NCBI RefSeq assembly: GCF_003574085.1
Contig: NZ_QWKZ01000020.1
Span: 1-34,733, forward strand
Direction: 5' to 3'
Source of the DNA: Meiothermus luteus
GTDB taxonomy: Bacteria > Deinococcota > Deinococci > Deinococcales > Thermaceae
DNA length: 34,733 nucleotides
The notes under the pieces are model-generated. The model was not told where the DNA came from. It worked only from the letters and a program-made list of their open reading frames with translations, and did no database searches. Positions 29,110 to 34,636 of the stretch are shown piece by piece (position 1 is the first letter of the stretch; each line of letters starts with the position of its first letter). The position numbers were made by a program, and so were the translations under genes.

Positions 29110-30165
29110 ATGGACGAACCCACCCCCCTCAGCGAAGCCTCTACCCAGGAGCGGAGCAGAACCCCCAACCGGTGGATTTTGCGGGGGGTCTTGGCGATGT
29201 TCCTGCTGCTGGCCGGCCTCATGGGGTATCTCCTCTACCTCATGGGCCCCACTGGAGCAGCGGCCGAGGTGCAGATTTCCAGGGGCAGCGGGGCCCAGGC
29301 GGTAGGGCGCCTGCTGGAGCAGGCCGGGCTGGTGCGCTCAGGGTACCTGTTTGCCCTATACCTGCGCTTTTCCGGCCTGGACAAGGCCCTAAAGCCAGGT
29401 TTTTACCGCCTCGAGGGCAAAGGGGTGCGGGCCATCGCCTTGACCCTCACCGACCCTTCCCGGCCCCTGCGGGTGCGGATCACCTTTCCTGAGGGCTGGC
29501 GGGCCTCGGAGATGGCCCAGCGGCTAAGCGAGCACAACCTGGACGGGGCCCGCTTCCTGGAGCTGGTGAACCAGCCGACCCCCGAGCTGCGCCTCCCTGA
29601 GGCCGAGGGCCCTACCCTAGAGGGCTACCTCTTTCCCGCCACCTACGAATTTCCCATGGACGCCACTCCCGAGGAGATTATCCGAACCATGACCCGCCGC
29701 ATGGCCCAGGAGTTCACCCCAGAGGCCCTAGAGCGCCTGCCCAGTCTGGGGCTAAAGAGCGTCCACGCCTGGGTTACCCTGGCCTCCATCGTCCAAGCCG
29801 AGGCCGCCAACCCCGGCGAGAAACCCTTCATCGCGGGGGTCTTCCTCAACCGGCTCGAGCTGGGCATGCCGCTCCAGGCCGACCCCACCGTGGCCTACGG
29901 CCTGGGCAAGCGTCTTCCCGAGCTGGACCGCAACGCGGGCGACTTCACCAAGGACACCCCCTACAACACCTATACCCGCCGCGGCCTACCCCCCGGCCCC
30001 ATTGGCAATCCCGGGGCCGAGGCCCTGCGGGCGGTGCTCAACCCGGTGCGCACCAACGAGAAGGGCCAAAGGTACCTGTACTTCCTACACGCCCAGGGGC
30101 GCCTCTTCCTGAACGTGGACTTCCAGGGGCACCTGCGGGATACCGCCCGGTACTACCTCAGGTAG
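29110..30165 (+). CDS. mltG: Endolytic peptidoglycan transglycosylase MltG
   Basis: MltG cuts growing glycan strands in the membrane and is thought to terminate their synthesis. The 351-residue protein has a cytoplasmic N-terminus, one membrane helix at about residues 24-46, a LysM-like domain, and the YceG catalytic domain. Key signatures are EGYLFPATYEFP near 174-185, the catalytic Glu in LASIVQAEA near 231, and YNTYTRRGLPPGPIGNPG near 291-308. Length fits the family. The start is ATG 29110, three bases after ruvX stops. Its end overlaps the convergent rhodanese gene by eight bases. Confidence 0.95.
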   Translation: MDEPTPLSEASTQERSRTPNRWILRGVLAMFLLLAGLMGYLLYLMGPTGAAAEVQISRGSGAQAVGRLLEQAGLVRSGYLFALYLRFSGLDKALKPGFYRLEGKGVRAIALTLTDPSRPLRVRITFPEGWRASEMAQRLSEHNLDGARFLELVNQPTPELRLPEAEGPTLEGYLFPATYEFPMDATPEEIIRTMTRRMAQEFTPEALERLPSLGLKSVHAWVTLASIVQAEAANPGEKPFIAGVFLNRLELGMPLQADPTVAYGLGKRLPELDRNAGDFTKDTPYNTYTRRGLPPGPIGNPGAEALRAVLNPVRTNEKGQRYLYFLHAQGRLFLNVDFQGHLRDTARYYLR

Positions 30166-30451
30166 AAGCCCGCTTCAGTCCGCGCAGCCCCCCCTCCAGG
30201 TGGTACACCCGCTCGTACCCCGCCGCCTCGAGGTACAACCCCGCTAGCTCGCTCATCACCCCCCGCTCGCAAACGAGCAGGATGGGGCGGTCCTTGGGAA
30301 GGTGGTGGTTGCCACCTTGGATGTCGGCCAGGGGCACCGAGAGGGCCTGGGCGAAGCCAATCGGCTCGGCCTGGCCGGCCGGCCGCACATCCACCACCAA
30401 GGGGTCCTCCTGGAGGAACTCCGCCAACGCCTCGGGACGAACGCCGCGCAT
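30158..30451 (-). CDS. Rhodanese-domain protein
   Basis: This 97-residue single rhodanese domain starts MRGVRPEALAEFLQEDPLVVDVRP (short CDC25-like fold) and has the active-site loop CERGVMS with the sulfur-accepting Cys near residue 61. The usual function is transfer of sulfane sulfur from thiosulfate or a persulfide. Its ATG at 30451 is preceded directly by GAGGT and, seven bases further, by a TATCCT box, so it may be leaderless. It overlaps the end of mltG on the other strand and follows an unknown protein on the same strand by only 14 bases. Confidence 0.9.
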   Translation of the reverse strand: MRGVRPEALAEFLQEDPLVVDVRPAGQAEPIGFAQALSVPLADIQGGNHHLPKDRPILLVCERGVMSELAGLYLEAAGYERVYHLEGGLRGLKRAST

Positions 30452-30465
30452 ACCTCAAGGATACC

Positions 30466-30927
30466 CTAGCGGCCCAGCACCTCTGGGCGGAAGGCCATCA
30501 GGGGAGGGCGCAGGCGCACCACGACCCACCCCCCTGCGGGTGGGGGTTCCAAAGCCGCCAAAACCAGCCGGAACCCCGCCTGGCCCTCCGGCCCCAAGAC
30601 CCGCAGCACAAAAAAAGGAGGCTCCAGCACCGCCTCCACCTGGCCCGAAAAGGCGTAGCGTCCCCCCTCCAGCCGCCGCACGGCCTCCCGCTGCCCCTGG
30701 ACCTCCTCCCAGAGCTCCACCTGGCCGTGCAGAATCAGCGGGGTCTCACCCCCCGAAAACGGGGCCAGGCCCCGGTCAAAGGCGTAAAGGGGGCCTAGGG
30801 GAGTAACAACCTCAATGAGCGGGCTGCCCACCGGCTCGGGGCTCACCGGAAAGCTCTGGGCATAAGCCGAAAAGCGCTCCCAGAAGTATTCCGGGCCCTC
30901 CTCTAGGGGCCTGGTACGAACAGTCAT
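30466..30927 (-). CDS. Unknown beta-rich protein
   Basis: I do not recognise this 153-residue protein. It has no signal peptide or membrane helix. Much of it looks like alternating beta strands (LIEVVTPLGPLYAF, LILHGQVELWEEV, FFVLRVLGPEGQAG, GGWVVVRLRPP), perhaps an OB-like or beta-barrel fold. ATG 30927 is chosen over the GTG at 30933 because GAGGTG lies four bases before it. It starts 21 bases after the nuoN stop and may be the tail of the complex I operon. A role with complex I is possible from position but not shown. Confidence 0.65.
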   Translation of the reverse strand: MTVRTRPLEEGPEYFWERFSAYAQSFPVSPEPVGSPLIEVVTPLGPLYAFDRGLAPFSGGETPLILHGQVELWEEVQGQREAVRRLEGGRYAFSGQVEAVLEPPFFVLRVLGPEGQAGFRLVLAALEPPPAGGWVVVRLRPPLMAFRPEVLGR

Positions 30928-30948
30928 CTGCACCTCAGGAACCCTACC

Positions 30949-33183
30949 TCAGCGCACGTTCAGGGTGATGGCGGCCAAGGGGGGCTCAGCCTCGGAAGCC
31001 CCAGCCTCGCGGACTTCGTAGGTAATCTCCCCAGGGCCTGGGTCAGAAAGGTAGCTCCACCCACAGGCCGCGCTCAAGGAGATTTCCCTACGGCCAACCA
31101 CCCGTTCGCCCCGCTTGACCAACACCGTGTAGCCGCTGGCCGAACCCACCCCACCGAAGCGGAAGGGCCGAGAAACGGTTCCGCCCGCCTGGAGGTTGGA
31201 AAGGGCAAAGCGCTGGCTGCAGATGGCCCCGGCCTGGGCCTCGGGCACCACCAGCGAGACCCGGGCGGCGGGAATTCCCTCGGCTCGAGCCTCATAGACC
31301 CGACTGCCCCCCGCCGGAGGCGGAACCCCCAGGCTCCACCGGCCCTCCGCATCGGCCTTTACCCGGCCCAGGCTTACCCCGTCCTCAAAGACCTCCACCT
31401 CCTGGCCTGGCGGGGCGGTGCCCTCTAGGACAAACCCCGTGGGGGCTACAGAGGCCCCCTCAGCCGGGGCGGTGATGGCCAGCCCAGGAGGGGCGAGTAG
31501 GGTGACCCTGGCTCGAGCCGCCCCCCCCTGCCCCTCCCTACGGGCCTCGTAGGTGTGCTCCCCCACTACAAGGGCCGAAGTGGGGAGCTCAAAGCGCCAG
31601 TGCCCATCCGGGCCCACCGCCACCCGGCCGACGGGGCGGCCGTTGTCAAGAATCTCTAGGCTCTCCCCCGGCCGACCGGTGCCCTCCAAGGCCAAGGGCC
31701 CTGCCGCCAGGGTGGCCCCATCGGGGGGAGCCATCAGCGTTACCCCAGCTTGGGAAAGGCCCTGCCCCGCCCCTAAGGCCCGCAGGGCCGGGCCTGGCAA
31801 CAAGGAGAGCAGCAGCAAAAGACCCATCCCCGACCACAGCACCCCAGCCCCAGGCAGCCGGGCGGCCGGGGCCATGAGTGCCTGAGTGAGGCTCAAAGGG
31901 GCCCCCACCAACGGCGCACCTGGGGCCTCTGAGCTGCCAAAACGCGCCACTGCTTCCTCGGTTTCCCTCTCTAAGGCCTCCTGGGAAGGCTCAGGCTGGG
32001 CAAAAAGGAGGAAGAAAACCCGGAGGTAGTAGTAGGCCCCCACCGCTGAGGCCACCAGGGCCAGCACCACCAGACCGTACAGCCCGGCTCGAGCTGCCTC
32101 CTGAAAGACCAGGTACTTGGCCCAAAACCCCGCCAGGGGAGGAAGCCCCAGGACCGAAAGCACCCCCAGCGCAAGCCCTCCGGCCACCAGCGGCCTGCGG
32201 TGCCAAAGCCCTCGCAACCGCTCCAGAGGCACCTCCTGGTTGGAGAGCATGGAGAGAGCGGCGAAAATCAGGCCCGTACCCAAAGCGTAGGTGAGCAGGT
32301 AAAAGGGCACCGTGGCCCCTGCGGTGGGGCCAAAAAGCCCCAACCCCAAATACCCCGCATTGGCGATGGAGGAGTAGGCAAAAAGCCGCTTGGCCTCGGT
32401 CTGGGCCAGGGCCCCAAGGTTGCCAAAGAGGACGCTTAGGGCCACCAGCACGGCCAGCCCCACCCCCCAGGCCTCCAGCCCCTGAGGGGTGAAGATGCGC
32501 AGCATAGCCGCGAAGGCCGCTGCCTTAACCGCGGTAGCCATGAAAAGCGAAACCACCGTGGGGCTGCCCTGGTACACGTCGGGGGACCACCAGTGGAAGG
32601 GCACCATGGCGGTCTTGAAGGCAAAAGCCGCCAAAATCAGGAGCAGCGCCGTGGTGTACAGCGGCCCTGAGCCGACTGCCCCGGCCATAAAGCTCCCGGT
32701 GGCCCCATAGTAAAGCGCCACCCCGTACAGGAAAACCGCAGCCCCCAAAGCGCCCAGCAAAAAATACTTGAGCCCTGCCTCAAAGCCCTTCTCGTCACGC
32801 TGCCAGGCCGAAAGCACGTATAAGGGCAGGGAAAAAATCTCCAGGGCGATGACCAGCACCACCAGGTTGGGGCTGCTGGCCATGAGGTGCATCCCGGTCA
32901 CCGCGTAGAGCACCAGTAGGGGGAACTCAAACTTCTTGGCTGGGCCCAGCAGCAGGGCCCAAAGCCCACCCAAAACCGCCACCAAGGTCAAGCCCCTGGC
33001 CAGGGGGTCAAAGCGGTAAAGTCCGCCAAAGGCCTCTACGACCTCCCCCCACCCCACCACGGCGAAAAGCCCGGCCAGCAGTAAAGCCGCCACCGATAGG
33101 ACCCGGTTGGCCTCGCGGGAGATGACGAAGGCCAGAAGCGACAGCAGGGTGGAGAAACTCGCCAGGGTATACAAAGTCAGCAT
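30949..33183 (-). CDS. nuoN: NADH-quinone oxidoreductase subunit N fused to C-terminal Ig-like domains
   Basis: NuoN is an antiporter-like, proton-pumping membrane subunit of complex I. Residues 1-395 show the NuoN core of the first 13 helices, with the FKTAMVPFHWW segment near 189-199 (key Lys) and the DVYQGSPTVVSLF motif near 202-214. A hydrophilic loop at about 396-447 precedes the last helix (about 449-466). Beyond it lie about 275 extra residues: one Ig/Big-like domain (about 480-562), a second, similar one (about 567-647; both read APPDGAT/APAEGAS, then G-RP/PPG-E, DG or DNG, and a Gly-Arg-Trp strand), and a third beta-rich domain (652-744) with two cysteines. The total of 744 residues is far above the usual 420-490. 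ATG 33183 follows GGAGGTG. It starts 31 bases after nuoM ends. Confidence 0.92.
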   Translation of the reverse strand: MLTLYTLASFSTLLSLLAFVISREANRVLSVAALLLAGLFAVVGWGEVVEAFGGLYRFDPLARGLTLVAVLGGLWALLLGPAKKFEFPLLVLYAVTGMHLMASSPNLVVLVIALEIFSLPLYVLSAWQRDEKGFEAGLKYFLLGALGAAVFLYGVALYYGATGSFMAGAVGSGPLYTTALLLILAAFAFKTAMVPFHWWSPDVYQGSPTVVSLFMATAVKAAAFAAMLRIFTPQGLEAWGVGLAVLVALSVLFGNLGALAQTEAKRLFAYSSIANAGYLGLGLFGPTAGATVPFYLLTYALGTGLIFAALSMLSNQEVPLERLRGLWHRRPLVAGGLALGVLSVLGLPPLAGFWAKYLVFQEAARAGLYGLVVLALVASAVGAYYYLRVFFLLFAQPEPSQEALERETEEAVARFGSSEAPGAPLVGAPLSLTQALMAPAARLPGAGVLWSGMGLLLLLSLLPGPALRALGAGQGLSQAGVTLMAPPDGATLAAGPLALEGTGRPGESLEILDNGRPVGRVAVGPDGHWRFELPTSALVVGEHTYEARREGQGGAARARVTLLAPPGLAITAPAEGASVAPTGFVLEGTAPPGQEVEVFEDGVSLGRVKADAEGRWSLGVPPPAGGSRVYEARAEGIPAARVSLVVPEAQAGAICSQRFALSNLQAGGTVSRPFRFGGVGSASGYTVLVKRGERVVGRREISLSAACGWSYLSDPGPGEITYEVREAGASEAEPPLAAITLNVR

Positions 33184-33214
33184 CGGACACCTCCGCTGGC
33201 TTTCAAAACCCCCT

Positions 33215-34636
33215 TCACGAGGCACCTCCAAAAAGCGCACCCAAGGCCCGCCCCAGCGGCTCCAGGTGGGCGGTGAAGAGCTTAGGGTAGAGGCCCATCA
33301 AGAGAAGTACCCCCACCGTTACCCCCGCAAAGGCCCACTCCCTGGCGTCCATGTCCGAAACCGCCTGGGCCTGCGGGGTTTCCTGGAAAAGCCGCTGAAA
33401 AGCGGTAAGGGCATAGGCCGCCGCCGCGATAACCGAGAGGAAGGCCAGGAAGGTAAGCCAAGGGGCAACCTGGTAGGCCCCCAAAAGCACCATCAGCTCA
33501 CCGGGAAAGCCCGAGAGGCCAGGTAGGCCAATCATGGCCATCAAGAGGAACATCCCCAAAACATACAACCCCGGGGCATACCGGGCCAGACCCCGCACGG
33601 GTTGGGTCTCCAAGCTCCCGGTGCGGGCGTAAACCCTCCCCACAAACAGGAACATAGCCGAGCCGTAAATCATAGAAGCCCCAAGGAGGTACAGAGCCCC
33701 CACCGCACCCTCAGGGGTTCCGCTGAAAAGCCCCAGGGCCGCCACCCCCATGTGCGATACCCCAGCGTAGGCCAGCAAGGTCTTCCAATCGGGCGCGCTG
33801 AAGGCCAGCCAAGCCGCATACAGGGCCCCAAAAGCAGCCAGGAAAAGGAGGAGCCCCTGCCACTCGCGAAATCCCTCAGGGGCCAGGGGAATGGCCCACT
33901 TGAAGAAGGCAAAGATGCCCACCTTGTAAAGCGTACCCAGGGCATCCGCCAGGCCCGAGGGGTGGTTTTGCTGGTGGAAGCTGGGCAGCCAAGCGTGAAG
34001 AGGAAACAAAGGTGTTTTGACCGCGAAGGCCACCAAAAAGCCTAAAAAGGCCCAGGTCGCCGCCGGGCCCGAAAGCGGCCTGGAGGCCAGGTCGGTGTAG
34101 AGAAAGCTCTCCGCGCCACTTATAAAGCGCACTGCAAATATTGCCGCCAGCATCGGCAGCGAGCCTACCAGGGTAAATAGGGCAAAAGTGTACACAGCCC
34201 TAAGTCGGTCTGGCCCCCCGTAGAACCACAGCATGAGGAGAGCTGGGATTAAGCTGGCCTCAAAGAAGAAGTAGAAGAAGACCAGGTCCTGGGCAGCAAA
34301 AATTCCCAGAAGCCCGGTCTGCATCAAAAGGGCATAGGCCAAAAACCGCACCGGAACATCGGCCAACCAGACCCCAAGGAGGACCACCAGGTTTACCGCC
34401 AGCCAAAGGAGAAGCCCGGCCCCATCCAGCCCCACCGCGTAGTACACCCCCGCGTCGGGGAGAAAGGGCGTCTGGCTGGCATAGGCCACCCCCTCCCCCG
34501 GGTAGCCCACAAAAAGGTAGAGGGAAACCGCTAGGCTAGCCAAAGAGGCCAAAACCGCAAAACCGCGCCCCAAGGCGGGCCAGAGCAGAAGCGCCAGGCC
34601 CGCCAGCAGGGGCAGCCAAAGCCCAAAGTGAATCAT
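33215..34636 (-). CDS. nuoM: NADH-quinone oxidoreductase subunit M
   Basis: NuoM is a proton-pumping membrane subunit of complex I. The 473-residue protein has about 14 membrane helices, with the conserved VFFYFFFEASLIPALLML helix holding the key Glu near residue 130 and the KTPLFPLHAWLPSFHQQ motif near 214-230, including the pumping Lys. It ends normally, without an extra domain. ATG 34636 overlaps the nuoL stop (ATGA), so the two are translationally coupled. Length matches the Thermus homologue (about 470). The start is unambiguous from this overlap. Confidence 0.95.
   Translation of the reverse strand: MIHFGLWLPLLAGLALLLWPALGRGFAVLASLASLAVSLYLFVGYPGEGVAYASQTPFLPDAGVYYAVGLDGAGLLLWLAVNLVVLLGVWLADVPVRFLAYALLMQTGLLGIFAAQDLVFFYFFFEASLIPALLMLWFYGGPDRLRAVYTFALFTLVGSLPMLAAIFAVRFISGAESFLYTDLASRPLSGPAATWAFLGFLVAFAVKTPLFPLHAWLPSFHQQNHPSGLADALGTLYKVGIFAFFKWAIPLAPEGFREWQGLLLFLAAFGALYAAWLAFSAPDWKTLLAYAGVSHMGVAALGLFSGTPEGAVGALYLLGASMIYGSAMFLFVGRVYARTGSLETQPVRGLARYAPGLYVLGMFLLMAMIGLPGLSGFPGELMVLLGAYQVAPWLTFLAFLSVIAAAAYALTAFQRLFQETPQAQAVSDMDAREWAFAGVTVGVLLLMGLYPKLFTAHLEPLGRALGALFGGAS

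Follow-up and report, generated by a model that had tools for sequence, protein, structure and literature searches.

A three-domain immunoglobulin-like tail on the complex I subunit NuoN of Meiothermus, a candidate periplasmic arm directed at the cell wall

Few membrane proteins are as conserved as the core subunits of respiratory complex I, and the locus described here raises the question of why one of them, NuoN, should carry a long additional tail in Meiothermus luteus. The window analysed is a stretch of 34,733 nucleotides that makes up one entire contig (C113) of the 224-contig genome of this bacterium. Within it, nuoN (30949..33183, minus strand) encodes a protein of 744 residues, assigned by Pfam, by its match to Nqo14 of Thermus thermophilus and by comparison across the genus, in which a normal core of 14 helices is followed by a tail of 265 residues. 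The original prediction, which was made from the DNA sequence alone, held that NuoN continues into a tail of beta domains, and this was confirmed along with its coordinates; the description of the frame was corrected to the minus strand, with the ATG at 33183 and the stop codon ending at 30949.

The fused architecture is almost certainly real and genus-wide. When 50 genomes from the family were searched and the loci translated, the complete three-domain fusion was found in 14 of the 17 assessable Meiothermus genomes, a count that includes the window's own genome and the closed, single-contig genome of M. ruber (strain DSM 1279, 3,097,457 bp; PMC3035268); genome G019 was left out, as its contig holds only the first 180 residues of NuoN. 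The 13 other fused proteins are 66-90% identical to that of the window over their full length. The ratio of nonsynonymous to synonymous substitution rates (dN/dS) is 0.12 for the core and 0.31, 0.23 and 0.17 for the three successive tail domains, values which indicate that the tail is translated and under purifying selection. A frameshift or assembly error fusing two genes is ruled out by the 14 intact homologous frames and the closed genome, and the earlier claim of a single uninterrupted frame with a strong ribosome-binding site therefore stands: a GGAGG motif, read in the sequence at 33190..33194 (minus strand), lies six bases before the ATG. The tail is not peculiar to this genome; it is typical of the genus and has a one-domain precursor in sister genera.

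The membrane core resembles that of known NuoN proteins. Helices 1-13 (residues 1-398; 31990..33183, minus strand) include a Proton_antipo_M domain at residues 104-380 (Pfam), and in a search of solved structures residues 2-399 aligned end to end with Nqo14 of T. thermophilus (PDB 4HE8, 4HEA; E 6e-113), likewise a 14-helix antiporter-like subunit encoded directly after nuoM. Between helices 13 and 14 there is an inserted, variable loop that is predicted to be cytoplasmic (residues 399-445; 31849..31989, minus strand), and the helix 14 region (residues 446-470; 31774..31848, minus strand) is where Nqo14, with 427 residues, comes to its end. NuoN proteins usually stop shortly after this helix, a feature that is customary and not strictly defining; the Meiothermus protein instead has a longer 13-14 loop and runs on into three immunoglobulin (Ig)-like domains. 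The best NCBIfam model for NuoN, TIGR01770, gives 313-319 bits, slightly below its curated cut-off of 332.6.

Two of the tail domains are recognizable by family search. Ig1 (residues 480-562; 31498..31746, minus strand), a domain also found in sister genera, and Ig2 (residues 564-648; 31240..31494, minus strand) correspond to two Big_6 stretches that score 36.8-40.7 bits against a gathering score of 27.6, with an E-value of 3e-10 for the tail alone (Pfam), and their limits are about as originally proposed. The third domain, D3 (residues 649-744; 30952..31239, minus strand), has no Pfam match of its own. Profile comparison with hhalign gave probabilities of 99.6% for Ig1 with Ig2, 90.7% for Ig1 with D3 and 92.0% for Ig2 with D3, and AlphaFold2 modelling of residues 441-744 (13 sequences) returned three confident beta domains, mostly above 90 in predicted local distance difference test (pLDDT) score, with a mean of 85.9. 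An unrelated beta fold for the third domain is excluded by these two analyses; by profile and model, D3 belongs to the Ig family of Ig1 and Ig2 as a third, divergent copy, and the tail thus has three Ig domains. The original prediction was right about the beta domain and its cysteine pair, but had not recognized D3 as Ig-like and had placed the cysteines near 657 and 708. They lie at Cys655 and Cys707, are the only cysteines of the protein and are invariant in the fused as well as the separate forms of D3; a disulfide between them is strongly suggested. Among solved structures, the Foldseek neighbours of the tail were S-layer proteins, the adhesins SiiE and BapA, and Ig chains involved in cell adhesion.

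On which side of the membrane the tail lies can be judged from the predicted topology of the core. Hydropathy and homology place fourteen helices in NuoN, the number found for each antiporter-like subunit in published structures (PMC7434922; PMC3046159), and lysine plus arginine residues number about 17 in the odd loops against 4 in the even loops. Under the positive-inside rule this bias puts both the N- and the C-terminus outside, as had been supposed for the C-terminus. Together with the conserved cysteine pair, relatives of the tail that are carried on a single signal anchor (with a LysM domain in M. silvanus), the structure model and the conservation across the genus, this makes it highly probable, if short of proven, that the tail is periplasmic.

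An indication of what the tail might do comes from proteins that carry the same domains on their own. In eight Meiothermus genomes a separate protein of 304-315 residues consists of one N-terminal helix followed by the Ig-Ig-D3 triplet; it has no respiratory core, and in the loci read its gene lies away from nuo, adjoining a gene for a protein made up of a helix, a long coiled coil and a helix-hairpin-helix. The window's own genome has no separate copy of the triplet. Identity between the fused and separate proteins rises outward, from 27% in Ig1 through 41% in Ig2 to 59% in D3, and 34 residues of D3 are invariant between the two forms. The fused proteins show the same gradient amongst themselves, with mean pairwise identities of 0.54, 0.64 and 0.76 for Ig1, Ig2 and D3, against 0.85 for the core, and within the tail no domain is better conserved than D3. 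The simplest reading of this conservation in two settings is that D3 has a target common to the fused and the separate proteins.

The nature of such a target is suggested by M. silvanus (chromosome 3,249,394 bp; PMC3035272) and its sister species. In both genomes of this genus the triplet, with both cysteines, sits in a protein that has one N-terminal transmembrane helix in place of NuoN and a LysM domain at its C-terminus (E 7e-13 and 1e-13), which makes the wall or a wall-bound partner the likeliest target of D3. The gene for this protein is the second one upstream of nuoA, from which it is separated by an AMP-binding (PaaK-like) gene. A mechanism can be proposed on this basis: with the C-terminus outside after fourteen helices, Ig1 and Ig2 would form a flexible, fast-evolving stalk, and D3, a cysteine-bearing Ig domain, would be the conserved tip that recognizes the envelope target it has in common with the D3 of the separate proteins. 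This target would most likely be peptidoglycan or else a protein bound to the wall. Complex I would thereby be tethered to, or positioned against, the cell wall. We consider the chances about even that the tail is a periplasmic arm with such a tethering or positioning role, wall contact and positioning both being deduced from the comparisons above. The stronger statement, that a core proton-pumping subunit has a built-in wall anchor and that the Meiothermus respiratory chain is fixed relative to peptidoglycan, is put forward more tentatively. Peptidoglycan, the outer layer and another respiratory complex had been offered as contacts; of these, peptidoglycan is now the best supported, by inference, and nothing was found in favour of another respiratory complex.

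Several observations weigh against a wall tether. No LysM domain is found in the NuoN tail itself (Pfam), and adjacency of a triplet gene to nuo was seen only in the genus of M. silvanus: the corresponding position in M. ruber, flanked by a zinc-ribbon gene and the PaaK-like gene, has no triplet gene, and no Ig gene was present at the heads of the nuo operons in the Thermus-type genomes or those of a third genus (g3) that were checked. The sidedness of the tail is itself read from sequence, and a weakly hydrophobic stretch at residues 423-441, were it a helix, would flip the tail to the other side. The full-length model of NuoN (8 sequences) was poor, with a mean pLDDT of 52, and was not used; it does not define how the arm would leave complex I. 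Finally, nuoN is cut short inside Ig1 in genomes G021 and G017 (nuoN ends at loci L052 and L053, in that order), with the loss of D3 and most of the tail, whilst G010 lacks Ig1. D3 was absent from the whole of the G017 and G021 genomes, the former being only 84% complete. These losses indicate that the arm is dispensable and not essential.

The same data bear on other explanations. The Ig domains could instead act as a brace along the periplasmic face that stabilizes the membrane arm, or could build a supercomplex by docking complex III or a terminal oxidase. The strong constraint on D3 would suit such a role, and complex I of E. coli has lineage-specific peripheral-arm extensions, the pressure for integrity of that peripheral arm being said to be met in a species-dependent manner (PMC8357420). 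Thermus-type NuoN proteins, however, lack the tail even though those bacteria generally grow hotter, the linker after helix 14 (residues 462-478) is undefined in the tail model, and a brace internal to complex I does not predict the presence and conservation of D3 in proteins that are not fused to the complex; we regard this explanation as unlikely, though it deserves to be taken seriously.

A role of little consequence is less probable still. An envelope Ig module may have recombined onto NuoN and been tolerated there with little function, as the fast drift of Ig1, the loss of the tail from two genomes and the loss of Ig1 from a third might suggest, but passive accretion is hard to reconcile with a dN/dS for D3 that is near that of the core, with the 34 residues kept unchanged between fused and separate forms, and with the retention of the tail across most of the genus. 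It is also conceivable that the tail is cleaved after membrane insertion and works on its own in the periplasm, in which case NuoN would serve only to deliver it. The eight Meiothermus genomes do have these three domains on separate proteins with a membrane anchor; most genomes with such a copy nevertheless retain the fusion, and no cleavage signal was seen, although none was searched for systematically. This last explanation appears very improbable.

Comparison across the Deinococcota indicates how the tail was assembled. In the other families read, NuoN ends 10-25 residues past helix 14; some of their NuoN frames are very long (up to 1153 residues), and those that were read are lengthened upstream only. 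Within the family, a genus that is probably Thermus (g4) has a NuoN of 426-427 residues without Ig domains, which in its length and in where it ends comes nearest to T. thermophilus Nqo14. Exactly one Ig domain is present in the NuoN (550-565 residues) of M. silvanus (G001), of its sister species (G002) and of g3, which we infer to be probably Calidithermus. The tail was built up in steps: the NuoN of the Thermus-type genomes and of the other families read has no Ig domain, that of M. silvanus and of a further sister genus has one, and that of most Meiothermus has three. In a domain tree, which is indicative only, given short domains and some long branches, the single Ig domain of the sister genera groups with Meiothermus Ig1 (90/94) and the D3 of NuoN groups with that of the separate Meiothermus proteins (100/97). 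These groupings suggest that Ig1 came first and that Ig2 and D3 were probably added within Meiothermus, D3 at least from the family of separate proteins. In G017 the junction of the truncation has the look of a recombination event in which the Ig1 repeat joined with that of Ig2.

No description of a NuoN with Ig domains, of Meiothermus NuoN or of a wall anchor on complex I was found in the open-licence literature searched, and none of the NuoN proteins among the solved structures listed carries an addition this large, all having at most 571 residues; as part of the M. ruber genome, the protein must nevertheless already have a public database entry. Adhesins and S-layer proteins with Big_6 or Big_13 domains share the Big_6 sequence match and the fold (SiiE, BapA and S-layer Ig chains), but they are surface or secreted proteins and not part of an energy-converting membrane enzyme. 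If the proposal is true, a fused, conserved periplasmic arm would demonstrate that physical links between a respiratory pump and the envelope are possible. Where respiratory complexes are placed could then be tested in M. ruber, a cultured type strain. Thermus with no Ig domain, M. silvanus with one and M. ruber with three, plus the natural losses, provide a ready comparison series.

As regards its surroundings, nuoN is the last gene of the operon, the order nuoA-N being complete in M. ruber. In the window nuoM (33215..34636, minus strand) lies directly upstream in the same operon, with 31 nucleotides between its stop codon and the nuoN ATG, and nuoK-nuoA are on another contig (C144). Downstream, the stretch 30158-30933 on the minus strand holds a 155-codon frame without a family match, 15 bases past nuoN, and then a rhodanese-domain gene on the same strand; both are possibly co-transcribed with it. 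A two-gene pair related to that of the separate triplet protein is present in another family of the order, and the pair is therefore old. Its members are a protein with a membrane helix, a long coiled coil and a helix-hairpin-helix, and a membrane-anchored Ig-Ig-X protein (Thermaceae and related family; L039:3917-7189, L041:4743-7925, L045:3968-6879 and L088:4735-7499). In Meiothermus and M. silvanus the PaaK-like gene, of about 380 codons, sits immediately before nuoA, and in the third genus it is nearby (L034:17540-18688, L049:17418-18557 and L098:11801-12940), but not in the two Thermus-type genomes read. In the nuo operon of one third-genus genome, nuoF and nuoG are separated by a small gene for a protein of 126 residues (L047:8146-8526), and its product resembles four-helix-bundle proteins when judged by eye.
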